Origin: Chryseobacterium binzhouense
Lineage (GTDB): Bacteria; Bacteroidota; Bacteroidia; Flavobacteriales; Weeksellaceae
Direction of reading: 5' to 3'
Assembly (NCBI RefSeq): GCF_007474545.1
Contig: NZ_VKOG01000001.1
Coordinates: 744,001-808,000 of the forward strand
Length of the DNA: 64,000 nt
The position numbers and the translations under genes were made by a program. Below are positions 23,981 through 47,100 of the stretch, piece after piece (position 1 is the first letter of the stretch; each line of letters begins with the position of its first letter). The notes under the pieces were generated by a model, which was not told where the DNA came from, did no database searches, and worked only from the letters and a program-made list of their open reading frames with translations.

Positions 23981-25417
23981 ATGAAATATCTTTTTTTTAT
24001 TTTATTATTTGCTGGTTTTTCTTCGTTTTCACAATCAAAGAAAGACTCAGTTATAAAGAAAAATCTTGCAGAAGCCGAATACTATTTAGACAATTTTGAT
24101 GATTATAAATGCTTTGCTAAAGCTTATGAAGCTTATAATCTGGCGAAAAATAATAAAAAATATACTGCAGAAAGTTGTATATATATGGCTTCCAGCAGTG
24201 TAAATTTAAATTTATACAGTCTCACCCTAAAATACACGAAAATTGGATTGCTAAATTGTAATGATGAAGATTATTTTCGCAAATCTTTATTATATAATAT
24301 CGAAGGTGCTACATATTATGATTTAGGAATGTTTAATCAATCATTAAAAAGTTTACACAAAGCAATTGCTATTTTAAGAAATACTAAAGATGATTATTTG
24401 AAAACGTCTAGTGAGATTAGAAATTATCAACATCTTATAGTGGTTCATGAAAAAATGAATAATATAGATTCTATAAAGCTATATGATTCTAAAGAACGTA
24501 GCCTTATTGATAAACTTCCAATAAATACGTTTGCAGATCTTCATGTAAACTCTCATTATCTAAGGGTTCTAAGAGCTTTGAATTTTAATAGAAGATCAGA
24601 AGCGTTACAATCCTTAAATAGCAGTTATGATATATGCATGAAATATGATGATAAGTCTTTATATATCTATTACCACGGTATGGGCAAATACTACGCTTCA
24701 ATAGATAAAGAAAAAGCCCTGAATTTCTACTTAAAATCAATAAATGCGATGGAAAAATATAATATTCAGGCTGGTTTTTCAGAACCGTACCATGATGTTT
24801 CAAAGCTTTATGAAGAACTTGGAAATAGAGCGAAACAAAACCAGTATCTCAAAAAATATGTTTATTATCAGCAAAGAGAAAAGGCTATTAAGGATAGAAA
24901 TGTTGATTTGGTATTAGAAATGACATTGAATGATCAGAAAAAGAAAGACACTCAATTACTTAAAAACATCATGTGGCCTGCAATATTTTTACTTTTGATT
25001 ATTACGATTGCCGTTACTTTTTTTATTAGAAAATTGAAACTCAAACAAAGCAAATTGAAGAACCACCTTACTGAAAAATATAATGAAGTAGAAGAGTTAC
25101 AGGTGAAAGCAAATGTATCTTTTTCTGAGGTTGTGGAATATGCAAAAAATAATGATCCTCTTTTTTGGGCAAGATTCCAAGAGTTGTATCCTAATTTTTT
25201 AAATAAAATGCTTGTTTTAAATTCTAAACTAAAAGTTTCTGAGCTAGTTTTGTGTGCTTATATCTATTTAGGGTTTTCTAATAAAGAGATTGCAGAATAT
25301 ACTTTCAGATCTTTAAGAACAATAGAAAACAACCGTTACAATCTCCGTAAAAAATTAGACTTTTCCAAAGATGAGGATTTTACTGTATGGATCAGAAAAC
25401 ATATTGATTCTGATTAA
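23981..25417 (+). CDS. Membrane-anchored TPR protein with LuxR-type DNA-binding domain
   Basis: The 478-residue protein has a signal peptide (MKYLFFILLFAGFSSFSQS) followed by a TPR-like helical array up to about residue 310 and a single membrane helix near 328-348 (PAIFLLLIITIAVTFFI). A short coiled coil and a C-terminal helix-turn-helix near 415-460 (LGFSNKEIAEYTFRSLRTIENN, cut here to its core) follow. Topology predicts a periplasmic sensor and a cytoplasmic DNA-binding end, a one-component design common in Bacteroidetes. The window gives no ligand. It lies upstream of the fibre-gene cluster and may regulate it, which is inference. Confidence 0.8.
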   Translation: MKYLFFILLFAGFSSFSQSKKDSVIKKNLAEAEYYLDNFDDYKCFAKAYEAYNLAKNNKKYTAESCIYMASSSVNLNLYSLTLKYTKIGLLNCNDEDYFRKSLLYNIEGATYYDLGMFNQSLKSLHKAIAILRNTKDDYLKTSSEIRNYQHLIVVHEKMNNIDSIKLYDSKERSLIDKLPINTFADLHVNSHYLRVLRALNFNRRSEALQSLNSSYDICMKYDDKSLYIYYHGMGKYYASIDKEKALNFYLKSINAMEKYNIQAGFSEPYHDVSKLYEELGNRAKQNQYLKKYVYYQQREKAIKDRNVDLVLEMTLNDQKKKDTQLLKNIMWPAIFLLLIITIAVTFFIRKLKLKQSKLKNHLTEKYNEVEELQVKANVSFSEVVEYAKNNDPLFWARFQELYPNFLNKMLVLNSKLKVSELVLCAYIYLGFSNKEIAEYTFRSLRTIENNRYNLRKKLDFSKDEDFTVWIRKHIDSD

Positions 25418-26116: not shown

Positions 26117-26692
26117 ATGATTAATAAAATAGCTTTTGTTATAAGAATAAATAGTAACAGTAAGTATAGGATACTTATTGCTGTTTTATTATTGTTAATT
26201 GGGAATAATTTTTTTGGGCAAGTTTTGTATGTTACAGGTCATACTTTGGTGCACGGCGAAAACAATATCACAATAATCAATGCTGATTCAATTCAAAGCC
26301 CAATAGTTGATACTTATGCTGAAGTACAAATAAAAAAGGTTTATTGGAAAACCAATGATCCAAAGAAAAGATTGCTAAGAAAATTAGCCAATATTACAAA
26401 AAAGGATAAGATAAACGAGGTTTCTCAATCTATCAAAAAGCAAACAAGCAATTATACTATACTACCGTCTAAAACGAATAGTGACTTTTCGTTTGTATAT
26501 CTTTCATTATCAGAAAAAGGATGCGTAACAGACCAATTAAAGAGATACCAATCAGGTACTCTAAATAATTATAGCAAGCTTTTTATTCATTTTTCCGGCT
26601 ACTCTGTATTGCATTATCTGAAGTATCAAAATAATTTTGCTTCAGTAAACCATCGCTCGAGTTTTTCAGTAAGACCTCCGCCATTTTCATAA
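26117..26692 (+). CDS. Exported protein of unknown function
   Basis: This 191-residue protein has a long basic N-region (residues 1-17) before a hydrophobic core (RILIAVLLLLIGNNFFGQ) that likely ends in a signal cleavage. The mature part has no motif I recognise: a VTGHTLVHGENNITIIN start, lysine-rich middle, and a serine/proline tail (SFSVRPPPFS). It may be a shortened member of a surface-protein family, because it ends without a sorting domain, but this cannot be shown. A gap of 215 bases separates it from the next gene. Confidence 0.5.
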   Translation: MINKIAFVIRINSNSKYRILIAVLLLLIGNNFFGQVLYVTGHTLVHGENNITIINADSIQSPIVDTYAEVQIKKVYWKTNDPKKRLLRKLANITKKDKINEVSQSIKKQTSNYTILPSKTNSDFSFVYLSLSEKGCVTDQLKRYQSGTLNNYSKLFIHFSGYSVLHYLKYQNNFASVNHRSSFSVRPPPFS

Positions 26693-26906: not shown

Positions 26907-27260
26907 ATGAAGAAGTTATCAATAATTGCAATAAGCATTTTGCTGTTATCCTGCAAACGTAACGAGCAATCAAAATCATTAGAAATTTCCAGAAATACTG
27001 ATATGATTTCATCTGGAAATATTATTCCTGATGATTTAATACACGATACTTTAACCACCAACAAAGGGTATCTGGTGAATATAGTTTTCAATAATGCTAC
27101 CAATACGGTTTCAATATTTTATGAAGGAGGTCATGTTGAGCTTAAAGGTCAGCAAACAGCTTCAGGAATAAGATATACAGGTGACGGTTACGAATTGCTA
27201 GGCAAAGGAAGTTGCTTAGAACTAAGAAAAGACAATAAAACCATCGCAAAAAAACAATAA
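26907..27260 (+). CDS. MliC-like lipoprotein, copy 1
   Basis: This 117-residue lipoprotein has a signal peptide ending in the lipobox LLLSC (Cys16). The C-terminal third (ASGIRYTGDGYELLGKGSCL) matches the shape of the MliC/PliC lysozyme-inhibitor fold, where a Y-x-x-x-Y..G-K-G stretch precedes the terminal strand. The inhibitor cysteines are absent, so inhibition is not implied. It is the first gene of a tight cluster (26 bases to the next) and is paralogous to the gene at 29227. Confidence 0.65.
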   Translation: MKKLSIIAISILLLSCKRNEQSKSLEISRNTDMISSGNIIPDDLIHDTLTTNKGYLVNIVFNNATNTVSIFYEGGHVELKGQQTASGIRYTGDGYELLGKGSCLELRKDNKTIAKKQ

Positions 27261-27370
27261 ACGTAACCTTTTTACAATTTAACACAATGAAAAAACAATT
27301 ATTAGCAGTAGCACTTCTTGCTACAGGTCTTTTTTTTGCCCAAGAAGGCAGAGTGGGGATTAATACCACA
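27159..27370 (+). repeat. Direct repeat, copy 1 (end of lipoprotein to start of fibre gene)
   Basis: About 212 bases covering the 3' end of the lipoprotein gene, the 26-base spacer and the 5' end of the fibre gene match the segment at 29479-29690 without an indel (constant offset of 2320). Shared runs include GCTTCAGGAATAAG and the AACACAATGAAAAAACAAT start. Confidence 0.8.
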
Positions 27371-29194
27371 ACACCACAAGCTACTTTAGATATCGTAGGG
27401 AAGCCTGCGGTAGCAACAAATGTAGATGGTATCATCGCACCAAGATTAACAGGTGCTGAGTTAAGTGCAAAAGATGCAGTTTATACCTCAGCCCAAACAG
27501 GGGCATTAGTTTATGCTACAAGTGCAGCACCCAATAGTGGCAAAACCACTAAAGTAACAGCAGCAGGATATTACTACTTTGATGGAACAGAATGGGTGAA
27601 AGTAGGAAGTGGATTGCCTGTTACTGACATTAATCTTTATAAAGATAACGGGACACTTACTTCTAACAGAACTGTTACTTTAGATGGTAAAACCTTGACG
27701 TTCGATGGAAGCAATGAAAAAACTACTATTTCTCCTACTGGAGGTTTAACACAAGAAGGGAAAGTTAACGTAGCTAATATTACACTTAGATCTCCTGATA
27801 ACAATTCGAATGGAAAATCATCAAGTTTATTCATACAATCTTTTTCAGAAACTGCTGCACAGATTTTAGCAGGAGACGATGCTTCTTCTCTTACTATAGG
27901 AACACATTTTACTAGTGCTCCAGCTCCCATCATTTTTAATACTACTACAGCAACCAATGTTCTTGGAACTGAAAAAGCAAGAATTACTAGTAGTGGAAAT
28001 ATGGGAATAGCCACTAATCTTCCTACTCAAAAATTAGATGTAAACGGCAATGTGCGTTTTAGAGGTGTGCCTACCACAACTAGTTTAGCAGCGGGTGATA
28101 CTTTTTTAGTATTGGAATCAGACGGTACTGCTAAAAAAATTACGAATCCTGCAGGCAATGCAGTTATTACCGCAGAAAATGGTCTTAATAAAACTGTTGC
28201 AGGGGCAGTACGATTAGGCGGAACGTTAGATGCCAATACAATAATTACACAAGCCGATAAAACATTAGCGCTGACAGGAACAGCAGCCAACGCATTTTCT
28301 GTTGATGGAAATACATTTTCTGTAAATGCAGCTAATAACAGAGTTGGTATAGGAACAACTACACCAGAAAGGCCCTTAGAAATAGTAACAGGAGATGGCA
28401 CAGGTTTTCAACACTCTAATGGCACAATAAAACTAAGTTCTTATGTAGATAATACTGGGGCTACTTTTGGTACAAATACTAATCATAATTTTAAATTGAT
28501 GACCAATGCGAGTACAAAAATGCTAATTACTCCAACAGGTAATGTAGGGATTGGTACCGAGTCACCAAACACCAAACTACATATAGCAAGTACAGCCAAT
28601 CCGCTTACGATGACAGGTGTACAAACCGCTGCAATAGCAGATGATATCTTAACGATAAGCAACACGGGTGTAGTAAGAAAAAACTCTTTAGATAATTTAT
28701 TGAACGAAAAATCAATCCCTACCCCTGCTGTTTGGTTTTTAACAAACCAACAGAATAATTTTTTAAATGGTATTGCTGCAGGAAATACTGTTGTAACACC
28801 TATGACTTTATTAAAGAATAACATCCCTGGATTAACCTATAATGCATCTACTAGTACTATAACATTCCCAGCTGGTCTTTTTCAGATTTCTTATATCTAT
28901 GAAGGTCTTCATAACAACACAGGCTGTACTATTAGCTCATACATAGTAAATTTTCCTGATACAACTGCGGCAGGTGATGTAATACCTGCTGGAACTAGAA
29001 TTCACTCCACAAGCTCTCATAATCAAGGAGGACAATCTAACCATGGGGGTACTGTAACCTATACAGCAAGACTTAATGCTGGGCAAACATGGCAAATAAG
29101 ATTCGGAAGAGGACAATCAGGAAATTGCACTGGTACTGGCGGAGAACTCTATGCAAAAAGAACCCAATTAAGTATAATTAAAATTGGTGAATAA
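27287..29194 (+). CDS. Exported fibre-like repeat protein A
   Basis: This 635-residue protein has a signal peptide (MKKQLLAVALLATGLFFAQ) followed by a GRVGINTTTP motif, IIAPRLTGAELS, GALVYAT and a GYYYFDGTEWVKVGSG block. Later come GIGTTTPERPLEI and NVGIGTESPNTKLHIA repeats of the kind found in trimeric fibres and phage tail tips. From about residue 485 a beta-rich C-terminal domain ends in TQLSIIKIGE, reminiscent of a C1q/TNF-type head. No type IX sorting domain is present, so export beyond the periplasm would need another route. The gene is near-identical at its 5' end to the one at 29607. Confidence 0.7.
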   Translation: MKKQLLAVALLATGLFFAQEGRVGINTTTPQATLDIVGKPAVATNVDGIIAPRLTGAELSAKDAVYTSAQTGALVYATSAAPNSGKTTKVTAAGYYYFDGTEWVKVGSGLPVTDINLYKDNGTLTSNRTVTLDGKTLTFDGSNEKTTISPTGGLTQEGKVNVANITLRSPDNNSNGKSSSLFIQSFSETAAQILAGDDASSLTIGTHFTSAPAPIIFNTTTATNVLGTEKARITSSGNMGIATNLPTQKLDVNGNVRFRGVPTTTSLAAGDTFLVLESDGTAKKITNPAGNAVITAENGLNKTVAGAVRLGGTLDANTIITQADKTLALTGTAANAFSVDGNTFSVNAANNRVGIGTTTPERPLEIVTGDGTGFQHSNGTIKLSSYVDNTGATFGTNTNHNFKLMTNASTKMLITPTGNVGIGTESPNTKLHIASTANPLTMTGVQTAAIADDILTISNTGVVRKNSLDNLLNEKSIPTPAVWFLTNQQNNFLNGIAAGNTVVTPMTLLKNNIPGLTYNASTSTITFPAGLFQISYIYEGLHNNTGCTISSYIVNFPDTTAAGDVIPAGTRIHSTSSHNQGGQSNHGGTVTYTARLNAGQTWQIRFGRGQSGNCTGTGGELYAKRTQLSIIKIGE

Positions 29195-29226
29195 AAAAAT
29201 ACATTCTAAAAACAAACCATACACAA

Positions 29227-29580
29227 ATGAAAAAAACAGTATTTCTTTTGGCAAGCATACTTCTAATGTCTTGCACAAAAACAGAAAAAAAAGAACCACT
29301 AAGCAATTCTAAGGATACAGAAAATTCTGTAACTAAATCTGATATTTCAGAAGATTTGGTAATGGATAGTCTTTTCACTAAAGAAAAGGAAAAAATAGAT
29401 ATTATTTTCGATAATTCTAGCCAAACAGCCACTGTACTTTTTGAAGGTAATCAAGTACAACTAGAAGCACAAAAAACCGCTTCAGGAATAAGATATACAG
29501 GTAGCGGTTACGAATTACTAGGCAAAGGAACTGCTCTAGAATTAAAAAAAGACAGTATAACCATCGCAAAAAAACAATAA
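29227..29580 (+). CDS. MliC-like lipoprotein, copy 2
   Basis: This 117-residue protein has the same length and layout as the gene at 26907. The signal peptide ends in the lipobox LLMSC, and the C-terminal block ASGIRYTGSGYELLGKGTAL is nearly identical to the first copy, while the middle (residues 20-75) has diverged. This pattern suggests selection or recombination on the C-terminal block. It precedes fibre gene B by 26 bases and follows gene A by 32. Confidence 0.65.
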   Translation: MKKTVFLLASILLMSCTKTEKKEPLSNSKDTENSVTKSDISEDLVMDSLFTKEKEKIDIIFDNSSQTATVLFEGNQVQLEAQKTASGIRYTGSGYELLGKGTALELKKDSITIAKKQ

Positions 29581-29690
29581 ACATAATCTTTTTAAAATTT
29601 AACACAATGAAAAAACAATTATTAACAGTAGCAATTCTTGCTACAAGTCTTTTTTATGCGCAAGAGGGCAGAGTGGGTATCAATACCACT
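29479..29690 (+). repeat. Direct repeat, copy 2
   Basis: Partner of the repeat at 27159-27370, offset 2320 bases, spanning the lipoprotein 3' end and the start of the following fibre gene. Confidence 0.8.
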
Positions 29691-30854
29691 GACCCTAAAA
29701 CTACACTTGATGTGAGAGGCAAAGTGGGCTCCGATGGTAAATCTCCTTCAACTGAAATTACGGGTTTGCAAGCACCAAGATTAACCAGAGAAGAATTGAC
29801 CAATAAAGCAGCCATCTATGGTACAGATCAAAGAGGTGCATTAATCTATATTACAGATATTACAGGAGGAAACGCAGATTCAGCCTCACCAAGAAAAAAT
29901 GTAACCTCTGTAGGATATTACTACTTTGATGGGATAGAATGGATAAAAATAGGCTCTGGTTCTGGAACAACCAGTATAACGGCTGATAATGGTCTTACGA
30001 TGTCTACCACGAACAATGCGCAATTAGGAGGTACACTATTGAAAAATACAGATGTTGCGTTAGGTAATTTTAAACTTAATTTTACTGAAACAGCCACAAA
30101 CAACGGAAGTATTCTTGTCGGAACTTCTGCACCTACAGGAACGGGAGGTGTAGGTGCACCAACCGAAAAGTTAAGATTAGATGTAGATGGTATGACCAGA
30201 ACTGATAAGCTTACTGTAGGAGGTTCTACCTCTCTTACAGTTGCTGCTGCGCATATCAGAAATGAGAAATCTTCTGAGCCCATTTTGGTACTAACAGGAA
30301 CAAATTCTAATGCTTCAATAAATACAGGACTCCCTCTAAGAAAATTTGAGGTAACAGATGATGGTAAAGTAGGGATTGCTGCGCCAAACAGTTGGATTCA
30401 GACCTCTGGAACAACTCGCCCAACAGAATCTTTAGATGTGGGTGGAAATGTACGTTTTAGACAAGTGCCTTCTGGTACAGAAACAGCAGGAGACAAAATG
30501 ATGGTGTTGGCTTCTGACGGCACAGCTAAGTTATTACCACTGCCATCACCATCAACAAGCTTAAATATATCTCCTGTAATTACAGCAGGTAGTGCAACAC
30601 CTGTTTCAGCAACTTACGATGTTTTATTATTAGATATAAATGTCCCAACTCAAACAGTTACTTTACCAACATCTGCTAACGGTATTGCTGTTGGTAAAGT
30701 TGTGTATATATCACAAAAAGGCAGTGCGACAGTTACTATTAAGCCGCTTGTAAGAGAAGGAAGTCATGCAAATTTAGATGGTAGTTCAGGGGGTACTTAT
30801 ATTTACATAGGAGGTACGGGAGATGGCTCTTGGATTCGTGCTTCAGGTTACTAA
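29607..30854 (+). CDS. Exported fibre-like repeat protein B
   Basis: This 415-residue paralogue of A begins with a signal peptide that differs from that of A at only a few residues. Next come GRVGINTTDPKTTLDVRGK, LQAPRLTREELTNK, GALIYIT and GYYYFDGIEWIKIGSGSG. The middle is shorter, with GIAAPNSW and DVGGNVRFRQVP, and the last 95 residues (from about 320) form a distinct beta-rich domain ending SWIRASGY. The longer N-terminal TREEL insert is shared with the protein at 32744. It lies in the same closely spaced gene run. Confidence 0.7.
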   Translation: MKKQLLTVAILATSLFYAQEGRVGINTTDPKTTLDVRGKVGSDGKSPSTEITGLQAPRLTREELTNKAAIYGTDQRGALIYITDITGGNADSASPRKNVTSVGYYYFDGIEWIKIGSGSGTTSITADNGLTMSTTNNAQLGGTLLKNTDVALGNFKLNFTETATNNGSILVGTSAPTGTGGVGAPTEKLRLDVDGMTRTDKLTVGGSTSLTVAAAHIRNEKSSEPILVLTGTNSNASINTGLPLRKFEVTDDGKVGIAAPNSWIQTSGTTRPTESLDVGGNVRFRQVPSGTETAGDKMMVLASDGTAKLLPLPSPSTSLNISPVITAGSATPVSATYDVLLLDINVPTQTVTLPTSANGIAVGKVVYISQKGSATVTIKPLVREGSHANLDGSSGGTYIYIGGTGDGSWIRASGY

Positions 30855-30890
30855 TTCTATTGATAATCATTCAATTAACAACATAAAAAA

Positions 30891-32351
30891 ATGAAAAATA
30901 ATTATATTAAAATAAAATTTTTAGTTTCAGGTCTTATTCTTGCCACAGCAAGTTTGTCGTCTGCACAAGTTAGAATTGTAAATACTACTACACTTCAAGA
31001 AGCAGTTAATAGTTCTGCTTTTATTGATGCTTCATCCAATTTTACTCTAAATGAAACTCCAAACATTGGAAAAGGTATGCTTTTTCCCAGAACAGATTTA
31101 TCTAGATTTACTTCTTTTGGGGGTGCGCCTATAGGAATAGGAAATTCTTATCCTACTCGTTATGATGGATTGATTGTCTATAACATCAAAGACGGTGGTA
31201 AAGCAGGGGTAGGTGCTACTGAAGGCGAATTAAAGCCGGGTTTTTGGTTTTATGAAAACAAGTCTACAACAACCAATGGTGGTACTTGGAAACAAATAAG
31301 TAGTCCTACTACCAATTTGCTTACTATCGCAGGAGCTACACTTACCAGCACCGTAAATGGTGTTACTAGTACAGTTACTTTACCTGCCGCAAACAGTGGA
31401 GTAGATAACCCGGCCAACAACGGTCTTAGCAAAGATGGTACTACTGTGCAGCTTGGTGGTAGTCTGCTAAAAGATACTTCTATTGAGCTAAATGATAAGA
31501 GCTTAAATTTTACTGGTGCACAAGGAAAAATTGGGGTTGGTACCAATAATCCATTGTCTAAATTCAATATTCAAGGAGGCGCTTTAAGTATTGGAGACCT
31601 AACAAATTATTCTGGTGGTTTACAAGTGGTAAACCAAAATGCTGATAGAGCTATTATGCGAGTTTATTCTTCTAATAATACAGAAAGATTTACGATACAA
31701 GAGAACGGAAATATCGGTATAGGAACTAATAACCCTACTAGAAAATTACATATTGATGGTAATATAAGGATAGAAAATATGATTGAGGGTGATGTAAATA
31801 ATGGAGACAGAGTCCTTGCAATAGCTATCGATGGAAACGTGAAAAGCGTAGCTGTTAACGAAATTCTTAACAGTGAACCTAGATTTATCAATGCAGGGAA
31901 TATAGAAGGAGAAAGAGTTATAGCAGAAGGGGTAACCAATCTAATTGATGGCGCACAAATTAATGTAACAGTACCTGCAAATACAACTTATAAAGTAGTA
32001 GTTTCAGGAAATGCTGTAGTGCAACACCCAGTAAAGGTTAATGATCCTCAAGCGCCAAACTTTACCTATGGAAGTGGGCAGTTTCAACTTAGAGTTAATG
32101 GGTCTACTGTAGCAACTGTAGGTACAGGATTTTCAACACGGAAAATAACCGAGTTAAATCCTACTCATTGGCAGTCTACAGGTAATGCTACTACATTGAA
32201 CCACGTTATCGAAATCAATAATACAAGCGGTTCTCCAATAACCAGAACCATCAATGTTCATTATTGGGCAAAAAATACTACTACAGGATTAGCTAATAAA
32301 AATCATCAAGCATTTTTTAAAGGAACTTTCCAAACGTATAGAATGCCATAA
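30891..32351 (+). CDS. Exported fibre-like repeat protein C
   Basis: This 486-residue protein has a signal peptide (residues 1-25, ending SSAQ) and only loose similarity to A and B at the N-terminus (MLFPRTDLSRFTS, DGLIVYNIKDGG, FWFYENKST). It keeps NGLSKDGTTVQLGG and the fibre repeats KIGVGTNNPLSKFNI and NIGIGTNNPTRKLHIDGN. The C-terminal domain (about 330-486) is beta-rich with NVTVPANTTYKVVVSG and differs from A and B. It is the last gene of the tight run; no convincing terminator follows, only a stem-loop without a T tract. Confidence 0.7.
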   Translation: MKNNYIKIKFLVSGLILATASLSSAQVRIVNTTTLQEAVNSSAFIDASSNFTLNETPNIGKGMLFPRTDLSRFTSFGGAPIGIGNSYPTRYDGLIVYNIKDGGKAGVGATEGELKPGFWFYENKSTTTNGGTWKQISSPTTNLLTIAGATLTSTVNGVTSTVTLPAANSGVDNPANNGLSKDGTTVQLGGSLLKDTSIELNDKSLNFTGAQGKIGVGTNNPLSKFNIQGGALSIGDLTNYSGGLQVVNQNADRAIMRVYSSNNTERFTIQENGNIGIGTNNPTRKLHIDGNIRIENMIEGDVNNGDRVLAIAIDGNVKSVAVNEILNSEPRFINAGNIEGERVIAEGVTNLIDGAQINVTVPANTTYKVVVSGNAVVQHPVKVNDPQAPNFTYGSGQFQLRVNGSTVATVGTGFSTRKITELNPTHWQSTGNATTLNHVIEINNTSGSPITRTINVHYWAKNTTTGLANKNHQAFFKGTFQTYRMP

Positions 32352-32743
32352 ATCAAAAATTAAATAATGCTGTTCCTGCAGTCGGTATTGTAGGGACAGT
32401 TGAGAAAACATGTATAATTAATTTTTATTTATATTTTAATTATTTGTATTAATTTAAGTGTATATTTTATAATATGTGGTATTTATTTTTGTTTTTTAAA
32501 AATTATATTGCTAATTTTACATCTAAATTATAATGATTATATGTTTTTATTATTAAGACATATATATAAACAAATAGGTTAATAATATGAATTTATTCGG
32601 TAGAAGAAATAAGAATGACCTATATAGCTGTTTACATAAATAAAAATTTAATCTTTTTTCTCAAATTTTTATTAGTCTGTATAGTATTTCTTATTCAATT
32701 ATTTTGAATTGTAATGATACGTCTAATTAAAAATTTGAGAAAA
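32352..32743. other. Non-coding gap with a stem-loop and a putative promoter
   Basis: This 392-base AT-rich gap has no plausible gene. An 11-bp stem-loop (CTGTTCCTGCA at 32370 with TGTAGGGACAG at 32389) follows gene C but lacks a T tract. The rest is the upstream region of the next fibre gene, including the promoter-like element at 32489. Confidence 0.6.
32489..32519 (+). promoter_or_regulatory. Putative promoter of fibre gene D with a long leader
   Basis: TTG at 32489-32491 and TAATTTTA at 32512-32519 are separated by 20 bases, a TTG-N20-TAnnTTTA form like that before dnaE. It would give a leader of about 215 bases. Weak, given the AT-rich context. Confidence 0.3.
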
Positions 32744-34702
32744 ATGAAAAAAGTTTTATTTTCAATTATGTCATTAGTATCTGCTTTATGTTTGGGACAA
32801 GAAGGCAGAGTAGGTGTTAATACCACAGATCCCAAAACTACAATGGATGTACGAGGCAAAACAAATGCCTTAGGAGTTTCCTTAGCAACAGACATTACGG
32901 GTCTGCAAGCACCAAGATTAACAAGAGAAGAATTAACCAACAAAGGAGAATTGCTCTACGGAACAGATCAAAGTGGCGCTTTAGTTTATATTACAGATGT
33001 TACAGCAGGTACAGCTTCAGGACAAAGAATTAACATGACTACATCCGGTTATTACTATTTTAATGGATCGCTTTGGGTTAAAATAGGAGCAGGAGATCCT
33101 GCTCCAGAAATTAATCTTTACAAAGATGATGGCACTCTTACTAATAACAGAACGGTAACACAGAATGGAAATAGCCTTGCCATAACAGGAACCAACCAAA
33201 GAACAGTTTTTTCTCCTAATGCAGGAATTTCACAAGAAGCTCTAGCTAGCTCAACCACTGGATTGGCTAACATCATTATTACTTCTCCCGATAGAAATAG
33301 TAATGGAACAGTCTCTAGACTTAGTTTGCAGTCTTTTCCAGAATCAAATGCACAAGTATTTGCAGGATTGGATGCTTCCACATTAGATGTGGGTTCAAAC
33401 GCAACTACTAACCCTGTTCCACTTCGTTTCTTGACGAGTTCGGGATCTGGTGCATTAGGCACAGAAAAAGCAAGAATTGGCGCTGATGGCAGAATGGGCA
33501 TAGGGGTTACTATACCTTCAGAATTATTAGACGTAAATGGTAATGTAAGATTCAGAAGCGTACCTACAGCAACTGCCTTAGCAACTGGCGATGAATTTTT
33601 GGTTCTATCATCAAATGGAACTGCAAAAAAAATTACCAATCCGGCAGCCAGTAGCATTGTTGATGCTCAAAACGGACTCACAAAAACCCCAAGCAACTTC
33701 GTAGAACTAGGTGGTGATTTAACCAGAGCTACAACGGTTTCTAATCTTTCTGCAACCAATACAATGCAATTTACTGGTACTGGTATTAATGCTTTTTCGG
33801 TTGACGGCACTACTTTTTCTGTAGATGCAGATGCAAATAGGATCGGGATAGGGACTGCTGCTCCTACGCAAGCTTTAGATGTAAGAGGAAATATAAATGT
33901 AGAAAATGCAAATGCGGGAGTGGTGGTTAACTCAACAGATTCTACACCTTCTAGATTGGTTCTAACAAGAAGCAATGGAGGAGTAAATCTTGCTGCAAAT
34001 GATGAAATAGGCAGAATTAATTTTAATGGGAGAAGAAATGGAGCTGTTGCCACACTTAGCACAATACTCTCTACTTATGAAGGAAACGGAACTACTAATC
34101 TTACAGGATATGAATTTTACAATAACGGTATTCTCACTACACCATCTTTGGTGCTTCGATCTACAGGAAATCTCGGTGTAGGTGTTGTTTCTCCTTCTGA
34201 AAAATTAGATGTTAACGGGAACATCAAATTTTCTGGTGCCTTAATGCCTAATAATGATCCTGGAACAAATTTTCAGATCCTAAAAAGTACAGGTTCAGAT
34301 AGTCCGCCTGTTTGGTCACCAGATGTTAATACACTTGGAAATGGAGCAGGCCGGGTAAGTTCTGCAAATGGGGTAAGCACTACTATTACACCATGTAATA
34401 CTTCAGCAGCAAATAAAAATGTTACTTTAATTAGAGTGTTTTCTAATTTAGATGGTCTTAATAATGGATTGTACCTTGAACTTCTAGTTACAACGGGAGC
34501 CAATACGGGTGTTCAGGAGTTGCATAACTTGAGGTTTAATGGTGGTACAACTACTGCTGATACATCTACTGCGGGTACTTGGACGTATAACTTAGGAAAT
34601 GGTATTTTTAGAGTGATACTTTCTGGTACAAACAGACCTTTTACGGTTAGATTTGAAGGCGCATCGTTTGCAGGGAATATTGTTTACGAATGTTTGAGAT
34701 AA
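32744..34702 (+). CDS. Exported fibre-like repeat protein D
   Basis: I chose the start at 32744 (MKKVLFSIMSLVSALCLGQ), which makes a normal signal peptide; the ATG at 32714 adds 10 basic residues. The protein has 652 residues. It shares GRVGVNTTDPKTTMDVRGK, LQAPRLTREELTNKG, GALVYIT and GYYYFNGSLWVKIGAG with B, and its long middle (INLYKDDGTLTNNRTVT) with A. Fibre repeats include MGIGVTIPSELLDVNGNVRF and GIGTAAPTQALDVRGN. The C-terminal head (about 545-652), ending IVYECLR, matches none of the other three. It stands apart from the five-gene run with its own upstream region and terminator. Confidence 0.7.
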   Translation: MKKVLFSIMSLVSALCLGQEGRVGVNTTDPKTTMDVRGKTNALGVSLATDITGLQAPRLTREELTNKGELLYGTDQSGALVYITDVTAGTASGQRINMTTSGYYYFNGSLWVKIGAGDPAPEINLYKDDGTLTNNRTVTQNGNSLAITGTNQRTVFSPNAGISQEALASSTTGLANIIITSPDRNSNGTVSRLSLQSFPESNAQVFAGLDASTLDVGSNATTNPVPLRFLTSSGSGALGTEKARIGADGRMGIGVTIPSELLDVNGNVRFRSVPTATALATGDEFLVLSSNGTAKKITNPAASSIVDAQNGLTKTPSNFVELGGDLTRATTVSNLSATNTMQFTGTGINAFSVDGTTFSVDADANRIGIGTAAPTQALDVRGNINVENANAGVVVNSTDSTPSRLVLTRSNGGVNLAANDEIGRINFNGRRNGAVATLSTILSTYEGNGTTNLTGYEFYNNGILTTPSLVLRSTGNLGVGVVSPSEKLDVNGNIKFSGALMPNNDPGTNFQILKSTGSDSPPVWSPDVNTLGNGAGRVSSANGVSTTITPCNTSAANKNVTLIRVFSNLDGLNNGLYLELLVTTGANTGVQELHNLRFNGGTTTADTSTAGTWTYNLGNGIFRVILSGTNRPFTVRFEGASFAGNIVYECLR

Positions 34703-34752: not shown

Positions 34753-34779
34753 AAGCCCATTGCATTTGTGATGGGTTTT
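34753..34779 (+). terminator. Terminator after fibre gene D
   Basis: AAGCCCAT pairs with ATGGGTTT (one G-U) around a 10-base loop, then a short T-rich run. Moderate. Confidence 0.6.
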
Positions 34780-39179: not shown

Positions 39180-42100
39180 ATGTATTTAGTTTTTGATACC
39201 GAAACAACAGGATTACCTAAGAATTTCAACGCACCGCTTTCAGATTCAGATAACTGGCCCAGAATGGTTCAGATTGCATGGCAGCTGCATGATGACGACG
39301 GAACTTTAGTTGAAAATCAGGATTATATTATAAAACCGGAAGGGTACGATATTCCCTTCAACGCTGCCAGAATTCACGGGATTACCACGAAAATTGCCAA
39401 TGAAGAAGGTCGTGATCTTGAGGAAGTTCTGAATGAGTTTGCAGAAGTTCTTCAGAAAGTAAGAGTGGTCTCCGGACACAATGTGGAGTTTGATTACAAT
39501 ATTGTAGGAGCAGAATTTTTCCGCAAGAGTATAAAAGACAACCTTCAGGATAAGCCAAAAGCAGATACCATGATTCTGGGAACAGAATATTGTAAGCTTG
39601 GAGGCGGAAAAGGCGGAAGATACAAATCTCCAAAACTGGAAGAATTATACGAAAAGTTATACGGTCATAAATTTGATGAAGCCCACAATGCAGCAGCCGA
39701 CGTAAATGCTACAGCACAGGTTTTCTTTGAAATGATGAGAATCGGCGTGATTCCGGCTGAAGTTTTAAAGATTTCTGAAGATCAGCTTTCTTATTTTAAA
39801 GCACTTCATCCGGATCCGGTCAAGCCTTTTAATATTGTTATCAGAAGGCAGGTTGCAGATTTTAATAATAAGAAAAAACAGAAAGATTTCGGAAGTATTG
39901 ATGAGATTGATCTCGGAAAATATTTCAACTTTGATAATCACAGTGTTTTTTCCACTTTATCGGCGACTTCAAGTATTAATGATTTGATCAAAAAAGCTAC
40001 AGATGATCAGTTTCCTGCGGTCGGAATGGTCGATCTGGGAAATATGATGGGAGCTTTTAAATTTGTTTCGGCAGTAGAAGCCGCAAATGGCGACAGAGCA
40101 AAAAAGCATAAAGAATATTTAGCCAAAAAGCAGGAAGCAGAAGAAAACGGAATTGAGTTTAATGAACCTGAACCAGTTTCTGAACCTTTAATTCCGGTAG
40201 TAGGCTGCGAGTTCTATATTTCAGACCGTTATGAGCAAAAACAATTTACCAAAGACGATCCTGACCGCAGAACACAGGTTGTTTTGCTGGCAAAAGATTT
40301 TAACGGATATAAAAATCTGGCAAAACTTTCCAGTATAGGATTTTTAAAGGGTTTTTACTTCGGTGTTCCGCGTATCAGCCGTGAATTAATTGCTGAATAT
40401 AAAGAAGGAATAATCGCATTAACGTCGGGAATTAACGGAGATATTCCTGATGCGATTTTAAATACCGGTGAACAGAAAGGGGAGGAGCTTTTCAGATGGT
40501 GGAAAGGTACTTTTGGTGATGATTTTTATGTTCAGATCCAGAATCATAAGCTGCCAGAAGAAGAGCATTTGAATGATGTTTTGCTGCATTTTGCAGATAA
40601 ATATAATGTTAAAATATTAGCTCAGAACGAAACTTTTTACACCAATAAAGACGATGCCAATATTCAGGATATTGTAAGCTGCATTAAAGATGGTGAAAAA
40701 CTGACAACACCTGTTGGAAAAGGTTTTGGAAAAAGAAGAGGATTGGCAACAGGAGAATATTATATCAAAAACGCAGATGAAATAAAAGAAGCTTTTCTGG
40801 CTTATCCTGATGCATTTGATGCTTACGAAGAATTTACATCGAAATTTAAACCTTATACTTTAAAAAGAGATGTTCTTCTTCCGAAATTTGATATTCCACA
40901 GGAGTTTGTGCATCCTGAAGATGAGATAGACGGCGGAAAACGAGGTGAGATGGCTTATTTAACCCATTTAACCTACGAAGGAGCCAGAAAAAGATATGTT
41001 GAAACCGGAATTACGGATGAAATAAAAGAACGTCTGGATTTTGAGCTCGAAGTTATTGCCAATACAGGTTATCCGGGTTACTTCCTAATTGTTCAGGATT
41101 TCTGTAATGAAGCTAGAAATATGGGTGTTTGGGTTGGTCCTGGTCGTGGTTCTGCAGCAGGTTCTGCGGTAGCTTACTGTATTGGAATTACCAATGTAGA
41201 CCCTATTAAATATGATCTCCTTTTCGAGAGATTTCTAAATCCTGAAAGGGTTTCCATGCCCGATATTGATATTGACTTTGATGACGAAGGAAGAGACCGA
41301 ATCATCAAATGGGTAATTGATAAATACGGACAAAGTCAGGTAGCACAGATTATAACTTATTCTGTATTGGGAGGGAAATCTGCAATAAAAGATGCGGGAA
41401 GAGTACTGGATGTGCCAATTCCCGATACGAACAATATTGCAAAGCTGATTCCTCCGAGTCCGGGAATGAATATCGCCAAAGCTTTATCAAAATATGATAA
41501 GCTGAAACCAGAAGAGCAGCAGCTCGTGGATGAAATGAGACTTGTTTTAGACAGTCCTCACGATCCCCGTCATGATGTTTTGGCAAGTGCGAAAAAAATG
41601 GAAGGCTGCATCAGAAATACCGGAATCCACGCATGTGGAGTAATTATCACACCGGAAGATGTAAGTAATCTTGTTCCGGTCACAATTGCCGCAAAAGATG
41701 CAGATATTCTGGTTTCTCAGTTTGATAACTCGGTAGCGGAAAGTGCCGGTCTTCTGAAAATGGACTTTTTGGGGCTGCGAACTTTAACCATTATAAAAGA
41801 TGCATTAAAACTTGTAAAAGCCAGATATGGGATTGATATTAATCCGGATGAAATCCCGTTGGATGACACAAAAACGTATCAGTTATTCAAAGAAGGAAGA
41901 ACAGTCGGAATTTTCCAATATGAAAGTCCCGGAATGCAAAAATACATGAGGGAGCTTAAGCCTACGGTTTTTGCCGATCTTATTGCTATGAACGCATTAT
42001 ATCGTCCTGGTCCTATTAAATACATTCCTAATTTTATTAACAGAAAACACGGTATTGAGGAGATTGTCTATGATTTACCGGAAACTGAAGAATATTTAAA

Positions 42101-43847
42101 GGAAACTTACGGAATTACTGTTTATCAGGAGCAGGTAATGCTTTTATCCCAAAAACTGGCAAATTTTACCAAAGGTGAAGCTGATACGCTGAGAAAAGCA
42201 ATGGGTAAAAAGCAGATTGATGTTCTTAATAAAATGTACCCTAAATTTATAGAAGGCGGAAGAAAAAATAGCCTTAATGAAGAAAGATTAGAAAAAATCT
42301 GGAATGACTGGAAAGCATTTGCCGAATATGCCTTTAATAAATCTCACTCTACCTGTTATGCATTGATTGCCTATCAGACAGCATATCTTAAAGCCAATTA
42401 TCCTGCGGAATATATGGCGAGTGTGATGAGTAACAACATCAACAATTCAGATTCTATTACCATGTTCATGGAAGATTGTAAGAGTATTGGTGTAGACGTT
42501 TTAGGACCGGATGTAAATGAATCTCAGTATAAATTTTCAGTAAACGAAAAAGGACAGATTCGTTTTGGTCTGGGTGCGATTAAGGGAATTGGCGAAGGTC
42601 CGAGTGAAGCGATTACGAAAGAAAGAGAAAATGGAAGATTTAAAAATATTTATGATTTTTTTGAAAGAATTCTGCCGTCTCAGATGAATAAAAGAGTAGC
42701 TGAAAGTTTGGTTTTGGCAGGTGCCTTTGATGAATTGGATTCTTATCATCGAGGACAGTATTTTGATATTGATATGTCGGGAAGAACAAATCTTGAAAGA
42801 CTGATCCGTTATGGACAGAGCTTTCAGGAGAGTAAGAATGAAATGGAAAATTCTCTATTTGCTGATTTTGCTGAAGAAGTTCAGATCGAACAGCCTAAGT
42901 TGCTGCCTTGTCCTGAATGGCCGAATATGCATAAATTAAATAAAGAAAAGGAAATTATCGGATTTTATCTTTCTGCACATCCGCTGGATGAATTTAAATT
43001 TCAGTTTCAGTTTATACAGGGAGAGCTTTCAAAAAAAGCAGTACTCGAAAAAGGGGATGATGTAAAAGCAGTCATTGATGAAGTGCCGATTCTTGAACAG
43101 GAAGCACCGGAAGATGTAGCTGATCTGATAGAAATAGTTTCAGATGAAGTCTTGACAGGTGAAGAGGAAATTATAGAAGAAATCGTGAAAAAAGCTGAGC
43201 CTAAAGGAGTGTTTGGTTTTCTGAATCTTGATGAAGTAGATGCATATAAGGAACAGGCTTTTGCCAATAAGCAGGAGGAATTGTTTGAGGAAAAGAAAAA
43301 AGACTGGAAAACCATACAAAAAGAGAGGGAAAATGGTGGCGGAGGAAAAGAATATACTGTGGCGGGTTTGATTACAGAATATGTTGTAAAAGACGGCTTT
43401 CGAAGTGGAGAAAAAGTAGCATTTCTTACATTGGAGGATTACTCAGGATCATATTCTTTCAGGCTGGGAGACCGGGATTATATGAAATTGAAAGAAAAAC
43501 TCGAAGTACAGCGTTTTGTGATTTTAAAAATAAAATTTGCTCAGGTAAAAGACGGAAGGGTATTTGTAAATGTGGTGGATGTGATAGAACTTCAGGAAGC
43601 ATTTGAGCGTTATGCAAAAAGTATTTCTTTGGTAATGGATGTAATGGATTTCCGTCCTGAAGATCTCAATTTTTTCCGTAGAGTTTTAGAAAAAAATCAG
43701 GGATCGCAAAAAATCAAATTTTATATTAAGAATATTGAAGATGACTCACAGATTGAATTGCAGTCTATGAAACAATCTGTAAATCTTAACGGAGAACTGA
43801 TAAAGGAAATTCAGCTGTTAAATAAATATGAGTTTTATCTGAACTGA
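39180..43847 (+). CDS. dnaE: DNA polymerase III alpha subunit with N-terminal exonuclease domain
   Basis: This 1555-residue protein fuses a DnaQ-type 3'-5' exonuclease to DnaE. The exonuclease covers about residues 1-190 and keeps the DEDDh residues: Asp6 and Glu8 (FDTETTGL), Asp105 (HNVEFDYN), His169 and Asp174 (HNAAADVNA). The PHP domain begins near 252. The polymerase core has GPGRGSAAGSAVAYCIGI and the aspartates PDIDIDFDDEGRD, with helix-hairpin-helix and OB-fold parts at the end. The His-x-His start of PHP reads DNHSVFS, so PHP looks catalytically degenerate, consistent with proofreading by the fused domain. Flavobacterial DnaE proteins with this N-terminal fusion are, as I recall, typical of the group. 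Confidence 0.93.
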   Translation: MYLVFDTETTGLPKNFNAPLSDSDNWPRMVQIAWQLHDDDGTLVENQDYIIKPEGYDIPFNAARIHGITTKIANEEGRDLEEVLNEFAEVLQKVRVVSGHNVEFDYNIVGAEFFRKSIKDNLQDKPKADTMILGTEYCKLGGGKGGRYKSPKLEELYEKLYGHKFDEAHNAAADVNATAQVFFEMMRIGVIPAEVLKISEDQLSYFKALHPDPVKPFNIVIRRQVADFNNKKKQKDFGSIDEIDLGKYFNFDNHSVFSTLSATSSINDLIKKATDDQFPAVGMVDLGNMMGAFKFVSAVEAANGDRAKKHKEYLAKKQEAEENGIEFNEPEPVSEPLIPVVGCEFYISDRYEQKQFTKDDPDRRTQVVLLAKDFNGYKNLAKLSSIGFLKGFYFGVPRISRELIAEYKEGIIALTSGINGDIPDAILNTGEQKGEELFRWWKGTFGDDFYVQIQNHKLPEEEHLNDVLLHFADKYNVKILAQNETFYTNKDDANIQDIVSCIKDGEKLTTPVGKGFGKRRGLATGEYYIKNADEIKEAFLAYPDAFDAYEEFTSKFKPYTLKRDVLLPKFDIPQEFVHPEDEIDGGKRGEMAYLTHLTYEGARKRYVETGITDEIKERLDFELEVIANTGYPGYFLIVQDFCNEARNMGVWVGPGRGSAAGSAVAYCIGITNVDPIKYDLLFERFLNPERVSMPDIDIDFDDEGRDRIIKWVIDKYGQSQVAQIITYSVLGGKSAIKDAGRVLDVPIPDTNNIAKLIPPSPGMNIAKALSKYDKLKPEEQQLVDEMRLVLDSPHDPRHDVLASAKKMEGCIRNTGIHACGVIITPEDVSNLVPVTIAAKDADILVSQFDNSVAESAGLLKMDFLGLRTLTIIKDALKLVKARYGIDINPDEIPLDDTKTYQLFKEGRTVGIFQYESPGMQKYMRELKPTVFADLIAMNALYRPGPIKYIPNFINRKHGIEEIVYDLPETEEYLKETYGITVYQEQVMLLSQKLANFTKGEADTLRKAMGKKQIDVLNKMYPKFIEGGRKNSLNEERLEKIWNDWKAFAEYAFNKSHSTCYALIAYQTAYLKANYPAEYMASVMSNNINNSDSITMFMEDCKSIGVDVLGPDVNESQYKFSVNEKGQIRFGLGAIKGIGEGPSEAITKERENGRFKNIYDFFERILPSQMNKRVAESLVLAGAFDELDSYHRGQYFDIDMSGRTNLERLIRYGQSFQESKNEMENSLFADFAEEVQIEQPKLLPCPEWPNMHKLNKEKEIIGFYLSAHPLDEFKFQFQFIQGELSKKAVLEKGDDVKAVIDEVPILEQEAPEDVADLIEIVSDEVLTGEEEIIEEIVKKAEPKGVFGFLNLDEVDAYKEQAFANKQEELFEEKKKDWKTIQKERENGGGGKEYTVAGLITEYVVKDGFRSGEKVAFLTLEDYSGSYSFRLGDRDYMKLKEKLEVQRFVILKIKFAQVKDGRVFVNVVDVIELQEAFERYAKSISLVMDVMDFRPEDLNFFRRVLEKNQGSQKIKFYIKNIEDDSQIELQSMKQSVNLNGELIKEIQLLNKYEFYLN

Positions 43848-44150: not shown

Positions 44151-47100
44151 ATGAAAAAGGCTTATCTTTGGCTCTCGTTGTCCTGCAGTTTTGCAGCAAT
44201 GAAAGCGCAAACCACGTATTATTCCAAAGCCTCGGCGACGGATTTTACGGCTGTTAGCAGTTGGGGAACTGCAACGGATGGTACAGGCACATCACCAACA
44301 AGCATTAGTAATGCAGACAATTTTGTTATCCAAAACAATGCTGCATTGACACTTCCAAGTAATGCTTCAGTGAGACAGCTTACTATTAATTCTGGAAGTT
44401 TAACTGTTGCAAGTAACAGTCTTACGGTTTCCAGAGCTGCTGGGAATAATAGTACTTTACTTATTGCTGGAGGTTCATTAATACAGACAGGAGGATCAAT
44501 TATTTTAAATGGTAATTTCTTAATGACTTCTGGAGCGTTCAACCAATCTGGCGGCGGTATTGTCTTGGATGGAAATGATAATAATACAGCAGCTACTTCG
44601 GTTGCTTCTGGCACGGCTTTATTTGCATTAACAGGAGGAACTTCAAATTGTTCTGCAGGAACGATTACGTTAGTAGATCCACATGTAAATACATATTCTG
44701 CTGGATCTGGTACTAATAGGTCTGTAAATATAGGTCTCAATACGTCGGTTACATATTTTACAGGGACACATACCTTTATTTTTGGAGATGGTGTGAGTAC
44801 AACAGCTGGGAATGCGGATGGATTTGTTTTAGAAACTTATTCTAATGGATATGCACCAGTACAAAACGTTATAGTAAATGGCGGCGCAACTACGGGGAGA
44901 TGGCTTACTGCATCCAATAATAATTCGACAATTTATGGAACTCATATAAAAGGAGATTTAACGATAAATGCCAATGCTGAATTCAGACAGAATTATACTT
45001 CAGGATTATTGGCTGTTGGTGGAAATATAATCAATAATGGAACGATGACGGTGCAGGGCTCCACATCGACTTCTGCTTTGGTTTTAGGAACAAACAGTGC
45101 ATTTACAGTAACGGCACCTCAAAATATTTCTGGCTCAGGTGTTTTTAGAAACCTTACAGCTTCACCGACTGCTAATTTCTCTAATTTAACAATTAATAAC
45201 CCAGGAGGAGTTACTTTCTCTAATGCAAATTCATTATTAAGTGGAAGTAATACAGGTACGGTATCAGGAACATTGACTTTTACCAATGGAGTTGTGAATA
45301 CAGGTTCTAATACTTTTGTATTAGGAATATCGGGCACAACAGTAGGTACATTATCGTATACTGCAGGTGGATTTGGTTCAGGTTCTACATTTAGCAGATG
45401 GTATGGAACAGCTGGCTCTGGAACTACTATAACAGCTTCTACCATCCCATCTCCAGGTGCAGGTACTTATCCTTTTGTAACAGGTGCTGCAGGTTCTTAC
45501 AATGTAAATCATTTTCATAGAGCTACAGCGGCTTTAACGGCTGTAGGTCAAATGGCGGTTAAATTTAATGGGGGTGTTGGTACTTCTGCAATAACTCCAA
45601 TAACTGAGGGTTCATTGACTTATGATAGACAGACAAATGCTAACTGGGTTGTAACAACTTCGGCAGGATATGCTTCTTCCGCAACACATACTATTGCAAT
45701 TCAAGGTCAGGGAACATTTACGGCTATTACTCCAAATGTTACGATATTAAATAATGGAGCTTTGGCAGGTACTGCACAGGCAGGTACAAACCAGCCGATT
45801 GGGCAAAGAGCCGCAGTGCCTGCCGCAAATATAGCTGCAACATATACATTAGCTTCTATTACATCAGAAGCTGCTGTAGAGTCTGCACAATCAGGTCCAT
45901 GGGAAAGTGCAAGTACATGGGTGGGCGGAGTAGTACCTTCTTCTTGTGCTAGTGTTGGTATTCTTTCGGGGCATACAGTTACTGTCTCTTCTTCTACAAC
46001 TGCAACGCCAAGTAATGTAATTATTAATCCGGGAGGAGCTTTAGCTGTTACTGGAGGTTCTATAACTGTAGGTTGTGTTAATAGAAATAATTATGTTAAC
46101 AACAACGGTAGCTTATCAGTATCTGGAGGAACGTTAGTAGTAAATGGTAATATTAATAATGTATCAGGTTCTACTTTTGCCCAAACAGGAGGAAATATAA
46201 ATGTAGATGGAAACGACGCAGGTGCTACTGCAACAAGTGTAGCTTCGGGTACGCATTTAGTGAATATAGCTACCGGAAATGTAACACTTACTGGTGGAAC
46301 AATGACCGTAGTAGATCCTCATGCAGCTAACAGTACCAGTTCATTTGCATTTTCTTATTCTGGCGGAACTGCTATAGATAACACGGTTGGTTGGACTTTA
46401 AAATTTGGTGATGGATCCTCTACAGATGCAGGAGGAACAACGGCCACTGCTTCAGCTGCAGGAGGATTTATCTGGAATAATGCAGGAAGCAAAATCTATT
46501 TCAATAATGTAATAATAGACGGAACTTTAGGAACAAATAGATATGTGTCAAATTCTTCAACAACGATTGGTATTAATACATTAACTATTAATGCAAATGG
46601 AGAATTTAGAATGCCTACTTCGGGAATAAGTATTGCAGGTAACTTTACCAATAACGGTACATTTACTCATACTGCTTCTACTTTGAGTTTCCAGGATTTT
46701 AAAAATTCAACTGCTTCTGCTTCTACTACACCTCAGACTATTTCAGGAACTGGTGTATTTAGAAATAATATTGTTACTGCAAGCTCTACGGCTAATTTTA
46801 ATTCAATTACAATTAACAATAGTTCTTCAACGGGTGTTACTTTTGCTAATGCCAATTCGTTATTGAGCGGAGCAAATACAGGAACATTATCAGGAACATT
46901 AACATTGACAACAGGTTTTGTAAATACAGGTGCTAATACTTTTGTTTTAGGAACTTCAACTTCCTCCAATGGAACTTTATCTTATACTGCAGGTGGTTTT
47001 AGCACAGGTAGTACTTTTGCAAGATGGTGGCCTACTACGACAGGAGGAGCAACTATTACAGCTAATACTACTCCTTCTGGAACAGGAACGGGAGTATATC

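Follow-up and report, generated by a model that had tools for sequence, protein, structure and literature searches.

Candidate surface fibres of Chryseobacterium binzhouense with a shared base and varied tips, closest to the mosaic adhesive trimers of Bdellovibrio

The mosaic adhesive trimer (MAT) superfamily of Bdellovibrio bacteriovorus, according to the sections of the source consulted (PMC10769870), consists of proteins with a signal peptide, a conserved beta-rich N-terminal domain of ~130 amino acids (aa), a capping-loop stalk, and exchanged tips. The tips include TNF/C1q-like folds and S74, the proteins are typically ~1,000 aa, and the families within a genome are large. The capping loop is printed without I in the text of those sections, although the aligned Bdellovibrio chains do carry I. 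The window analyzed here is a stretch of 64,000 nucleotides from the 3.6 Mb genome of Chryseobacterium binzhouense (contig NZ_VKOG01000001.1, positions 744,001 to 808,000). It contains a cluster of six open reading frames (ORFs), all on the + strand, in the order lipoprotein 1, fibre protein A, lipoprotein 2, and fibre proteins B, C, and D, confirming the gene alternation described in an earlier note on this DNA. That note had supposed that the system was not described under one name; the closest system is, however, the MAT superfamily as presented in the sections consulted (PMC10769870). We consider it fairly probable that A to D are exported to the surface as MAT-type fibres, probably in trimeric form, each with a base module, a variable stalk, and an exchangeable binding tip, with B and C forming a unit and with MliC-type lipoproteins as neighbours.

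Proteins A, B, and D begin with a common N-terminal module (N-module) of ~110 residues, which comprises a signal peptide and the motifs RVGINTTxPxxTLDVxGK, APRLT, GALxY, and GYYYFxG.W. Identity to A was 57% for B and 51% for D. The motifs that the earlier note had reported as shared by these proteins (GRVGxNTT, APRLT, GALxY, and GYYYF-G) are all parts of this single module, in which VGINTTxP doubles as a capping-loop motif of the type seen in the stalks. Protein C has a different N-terminus of similar layout. It matched the module profile weakly in a four-sequence search (E 1.2e-6, best single stretch 1.5e-4), a match that could stem from the cap motifs, and a second module profile gave zero matches to it. 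Because relatives of C also match the module profile weakly (~1e-4 to 1e-6), its N-terminus would be at most a diverged version of the module. The combination of a signal peptide with a conserved N-terminal module (~110 aa including the signal peptide here) is a likeness in layout to MAT (PMC10769870).

In the genome of the window, the N-module had 16 matches, 11 of them strong (E<=1.1e-13), over four contigs. It was present in 77 of 79 genomes of the same genus, at 1 to 33 copies each. A sample of the phylum gave matches at E<=1e-6 in 16 of 296 genomes, a lower bound with up to 15 candidates scored per genome; these were the window's own genome, 5 other Chryseobacterium genomes, and 10 outside the genus. 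Given its presence in 77 of 79 genomes in the genus and in 10 genomes outside it in the phylum sample, the strong form of the N-module is mostly a Chryseobacterium family.

The cap motif used ([VILM]G[IVL][GN]xxxPxxx[LMFI]) occurred 3 times in A, 4 times in D, twice in C, and once in B, with one copy in each of A, B, and D sitting within the N-module. Shuffled proteins averaged 0.002-0.005 cap motifs each, and 3 of 1000 shuffles of B had one. The GIGT/GVGT repeats previously ascribed to all four proteins were therefore present in A, C, and D but not in B, whose sole motif is inside its N-module. Proteins A and D could be aligned up to residues 433 (A) and 490 (D) and diverged afterwards. Stalk matches to solved Bdellovibrio chains were obtained for A (7.4e-8), C (3.6e-6), and, weakly, D (0.0015). 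The stalks are thus like those of MAT (PMC10769870) both in the VG(I)[G/N]xxxPxxxL capping loops of A, C, and D (only inside the N-module in B) and in similarity to the solved chains, which extends to A, C, and weakly D, and not to B. Matches to DUF4469 in A (19.4 bits vs 22.6) and D, and to bMG5, Bac_rhamnosid_C, and VP9, were below the Pfam cut-off and were dropped.

Tail-fibre entries of PHROG also matched A (6e-16) and D (1e-11), and distant phage matches, each at <60% identity, were found in 19 of 50,697 records, as would suit an origin as prophage tail fibres or as those of an injection machine derived from a phage. We regard that origin as very improbable, the rest of the window having been outside the search for phage genes. 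In difference from phage tail fibres and tailspikes (PHROG 9942, 18345), the window fibres have signal peptides (by eye) and belong to a chromosomal family spread over the genome, with its 11 strong copies on 4 contigs; the window holds ordinary chromosomal genes (RNase Y, DnaE, and, just downstream of the cluster, a release-factor gene by eye); the phage matches are distant; and Peptidase_S74 had 0 matches in the genome at E<=0.001, with a positive E. coli control. A likeness to YadA-type trimeric autotransporter adhesins was seen in a paralogue of the same genome (locus L009 in our numbering), which has YadA_head repeats behind the same N-module. In contrast, A to D had no Pfam match to a YadA head or anchor at E<=1, and identity as YadA autotransporters was rejected for lack of the anchor domain.

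The last 96-158 residues of A to D were mutually unlike by BLASTP, the best cross-match having an E of 0.12 over only 15 residues, in agreement with the unrelated ends noticed earlier. Single-linkage clustering of the last 130 residues at most gave 31 C-terminal tip clusters among 102 complete module proteins. This set excluded 3 of 105 proteins with <80 residues after the module, as well as protein C, and it was not a random sample: many loci had been chosen for head A, so cluster 0 (27 proteins) is inflated. The proportion of pairs with the same tip dropped with N-module identity, from 18/18 at >=90% to 29/40 at 80-90%, 24/50 at 70-80%, 79/232 at 60-70%, and 35/606 at 50-60%; below 50% such pairs stayed few (49/1800, 131/1697, and 12/116). 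These counts used the 4,559 of 5,151 pairs with a BLASTP alignment of >=80 residues. The search proposed in the earlier note, for a conserved module with varying heads, thus returned a genus-wide module and a wide range of tips on it. Diverse tips on one base, TNF/C1q-like among them, and a big family per genome are likewise features of MAT (PMC10769870). Taken as a whole, the earlier observation stood as to gene order, the shared N-module, and the unrelated C-termini, and failed as to repeats in all four proteins.

Head A was found in 57 of 174 genomes of the genus, its own included. The best matches in the 56 other genomes were 45-62% identical, save one at 35%, and one spans half of the head. 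Module proteins carrying head A ranged from 259 to 1064 residues, and the head also occurred in Chishuiella, Spirosoma oryzae, and three Dysgonomonas. When 51 head-A ORFs from 45 loci were scored with the first ~50 module positions left out, the module was present at E<=1e-4 in 29 and more weakly (0.001-0.005) in 4, and the remaining 18 had no module beyond its first ~50 positions. Across 41 sequences, head A had invariant or near-invariant His, Arg, Cys, and Tyr positions, and its fold is predicted to be TNF/C1q-like. Head B was present in 14 of the 174 genomes, and heads C and D were each found in their own genome only. A profile of head B matched a surface-layer protein chain in the PDB (E 9.7e-5 over 29 residues, no individual stretch reaching the threshold) and two enzymes at 0.16; these matches were not used.

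Several results weigh against MAT-like binding fibres. The predicted model of the N-module was modest (predicted local distance difference test score 68), and a PDB fold search with it gave only one meaningless match (E 6.4). The sequence profile of head A yielded no convincing match in the PDB, only two avidin hybrids at E 0.06-0.1, and no Bdellovibrio chain was among the 50 matches listed in either of the two fold searches with head A. The stalk of B, alone among the four, has no cap motif, B had no relative among solved structures at E<=1, and a cap motif beyond the module was present in 47 of the 102 module proteins. Heads B, C, and D have no assigned fold. The sorting domain of the type IX secretion system (T9SS; TIGR04183 or similar) had no NCBIfam match in A to D at E<=1, by which identity as T9SS cargo was rejected. 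The last two results, with the many gene copies, would also suit structural or periplasmic/matrix proteins (coat, biofilm scaffold) without specific ligands, for which the missing sorting domain means no known export route. We hold such a role to be rather unlikely, as many unrelated tips on one base, the predicted TNF/C1q-like tip, and the (near-)invariant residues of head A argue against it.

The N-modules of A, B, and D contained 100 informative DNA sites. The first 24 (alignment columns 4-23) all joined B to A; among the remaining 76, B went with D at 55, and 12 consecutive sites at columns 100-112 returned it to A. The best split of these sites was reached by 0 of 2000 permutations, in a test that treats sites as independent. 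The two copies of the junction between lipoprotein and fibre genes (unit 1 vs unit 2) were 72-93% identical per 40-base step over ~240 bases, spacer included; the flanks were 42-63% identical except for a single 40-base step deeper in the module, at 82%. The conserved spacer and lipoprotein end would be left unexplained if the signal peptide alone were under selection. Judged by sequence, the A, B, and D modules look like recombinant mosaics, and this mosaicism and the junction identity fit exchange between copies in place.

B and C are a conserved two-gene unit in which the tip of B is fixed and that of C is variable. A C-type gene lay directly after the head-B gene, on the same strand, in 19 of 19 places read in 13 other genomes, starting -24 to +43 bases from the end of the head-B gene. 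Outside the window's own genome there were 27 head-B places, and the 8 left after those 19 were 7 of G029 and 1 of G095 (our genome numbers). With three cuts of window B included, the count is 21 of 22; one of these cuts ends before C. C-type genes were sought only within fetched loci, mostly chosen for head B. B is usually nearly without a stalk, since 17 of its 19 other copies were 192-222 aa long; the remaining two measured 390 and 569 aa, and B of the window (415 aa) is one of the long forms. C-type proteins were 241-646 aa, and 17 complete ones, including that of the window, fell into 7 tail clusters. The pair adjoined the same RlpA-like gene in five genomes, and a RimO-like gene preceded it in four of those five, the contig of the fifth ending there (names by eye). 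No description of the B-C pair or of the Chryseobacterium fibre family was found in the literature searched, supplementary tables 3 and 4 of the MAT paper (other bacteria) being outside that search. We tentatively suggest that B and C could make a two-component fibre, with B as a constant base, cap, or co-assembling subunit and C as a variable target-binding fibre, and that tip exchange through gene conversion in the N-module could make the family a genome-encoded repertoire of binding specificities.

The two-gene unit is also one of the differences from MAT as far as the consulted sections describe it (PMC10769870). The others are the largely genus-specific N-module, the length of the Chryseobacterium proteins (mostly shorter than ~1,000 aa), and the absence of S74 tips from the genome of the window. 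Furthermore, trimers and surface display of the Chryseobacterium fibres are inferred from their genes. A second conserved fibre-gene pair (tip clusters 1 and 2) was seen at six loci (L011, L042, L043, L047, L049, and L134), one of them in the window's own genome. G029 had 33 N-module and 12 head-B matches, and one of its C-type fibres (L252 3785-5725) has a tail weakly like Fib_succ_major (1.4e-6, 29.1 bits vs a cut-off of 33.9). Five near-alike tandem 61-residue ORFs lie behind a B-C pair in G003 (L258 4820-5872).

Lipoproteins 1 and 2 matched Pfam MliC (PF09864) at 26.6 and 32.8 bits (cut-off 22), and each has a lipobox by eye with its cysteine at residue 16. Both missed the NCBIfam equivalog cut-off for MliC (25.8 and 21 vs 168 bits). 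SliC needs a Ser and Lys pair, 20 residues apart, according to the portion of PMC6033465 consulted. The two lipoproteins are like MliC/PliC c-type lysozyme inhibitors in having the domain above the Pfam cut-off, the lipobox, and a Ser and a Lys in SGxxY...KG as in the SliC pair, and differ from them in a Ser-Lys spacing of 14 residues (vs 20 in SliC; PMC6033465) and in scoring below the equivalog cut-off. By these features, they may be lysozyme-inhibitor-like neighbours of the fibres and probably are no functional part of them.

The earlier note had made the lipoprotein part of the fibre system, a claim that the other loci do not support. The lipoprotein gene was present in 50 of 174 genomes of the genus, own included (E<=1e-10). 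Within 1.5 kb of it, an N-module gene was found at 1 of 33 loci, from 33 of the 49 other matching genomes; at that sole locus (L079/L113), lipoprotein and fibre gene are 480 bp apart. An exonuclease III-like gene adjoined the lipoprotein gene, or was one small gene off, in 9 of 9 loci of one set and 12 of the 13 non-window loci listed from the other, and a PorX-like regulator was on the opposite flank in 19 of 22 loci (names by eye). Because of that single locus and of these other conserved neighbours, the lipoprotein-fibre pairing is not a rule. The MliC-type lipoprotein gene was seen by eye to be kept between the PorX-like and exonuclease III-like genes at L024-L029, L032, and L245-L247. In the three G-series genomes of L245-L247, the lipoprotein gene and the B-C pair are on opposite strands, 1.6-1.9 kb apart; two of these genomes (G144 and G194) belong to the 33-locus set, where reading stopped at 1.5 kb. 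This proximity may be how the window arrangement began.

Lipoprotein and adjoining fibre could still be one functional unit, in which the lipoprotein serves to anchor, export, or chaperone the fibre. The two window copies, with the same order, 26-bp spacers, and the junction of 72-93% identity, agree with this, as do the neighbouring genes at L079/L113 and L245-L247. Such a unit is improbable nonetheless, and as a general rule it was rejected: a lipoprotein match is lacking near all 8 remaining strong N-module copies in the genome, 32 of the 33 lipoprotein loci have no N-module gene within 1.5 kb, and the module is far more widespread in the genus than the lipoprotein.

The features of the cluster are listed in Table 1. 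Perhaps the first five genes form one transcript, since only 26-36 bp separate them; the gap before D is ~390 bp, and an alternative start of D is possible at 32714. A terminator-like stem at 34753-34778 is weak evidence because the region has 8 such stems vs 5.1 in shuffles. Rfam gave zero matches in the window at gathering scores.

Table 1. Positions of the cluster's genes, heads, and junction in the window
Feature	Position	Strand	Description
Lipoprotein 1	26907..27260	+	117 aa; MliC-type lysozyme-inhibitor domain, motif SGIRY...KG
Junction of lipoprotein 3' end, spacer, and fibre signal peptide	27147..27386	+	Likely recombination or gene-conversion tract
Fibre protein A	27287..29194	+	635 aa; signal peptide (by eye), N-module, stalk with 2 further cap motifs, head predicted TNF/C1q-like
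Head A	28721..29191	+	157 aa
Lipoprotein 2	29227..29580	+	117 aa; MliC-type
Fibre protein B	29607..30854	+	415 aa; N-module, stalk, head B; gene 1 of conserved B-C pair
Head B	30564..30851	+	96 aa
Fibre protein C	30891..32351	+	486 aa; C-type N-terminus, 2 cap motifs, orphan head; gene 2 of B-C pair
Head C	31875..32348	+	158 aa
Fibre protein D	32744..34702	+	652 aa from ATG 32744; N-module, 3 further cap motifs, orphan head
Head D	34337..34699	+	121 aa

Upstream of the cluster, window positions 23981-25417 encode a protein with TPR and a LuxR-type helix-turn-helix (GerE match at the cut-off; membrane segment by eye). Its C-terminal domain was found in 16 unique proteins, all from fibre/head-search loci and 0 in the 33 lipoprotein loci, a comparison with no neutral control. 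Directly 5' of the fibre cluster is a small exported ORF with an RPPP.. ending (26117-26692), and ORFs with this ending also lie before a second such cluster in this genome (L014 785-1423) and before a fibre gene of G129 (L249 7388-8041). Further downstream are a DNA polymerase III alpha of 1555 aa with an N-terminal DnaQ-like exonuclease region in frame (39180-43847) and two large proteins with a T9SS type A sorting domain (TIGR04183), unlike the fibres (44151-49304 and 49474-52092).

The genus-wide module, the tip clusters, the stalk motifs of solved trimeric fibres, and the predicted fold of head A favour the earlier idea that the fibres combine a conserved base with tips that vary; nothing pointing to the suggested defence role was seen. 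The N-module (common to A, B, and D, with a separate type in C) is probably the part at the cell, where it would hold the fibre. The stalk, which varies in length and in A, C, and D is organised around VGI(G/N)xxxPxxxL capping loops, would come next, and the exchangeable C-terminal tip most likely has glycans or proteins as its targets, either on surfaces or on other cells, so that adhesion through exchangeable tips is the most likely role of the fibres. Recombination among the numerous gene copies would be the source of new tips. B and C would act as a two-gene unit with the B tip constant and the C tip changing, and the MliC lipoproteins would have been placed and duplicated at the locus in this lineage.

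Chryseobacterium is common in soil, water, plants, and animals and, to our knowledge, is not known as a predator. In abundance the system of the window is ordinary for the genus, yet it is a genuine system of mosaic fibres, with MAT as the closest known one. These data suggest that Chryseobacterium would possess MAT-like fibres in large repertoires, the kind itself having been characterised in a predator. Such a repertoire would offer direct access to the way in which members of the genus recognise surfaces and neighbours, with the strictly paired B and C genes as a small tractable unit and head A, common to Chishuiella, Spirosoma, and Dysgonomonas, as one tip suited to structural and binding study.
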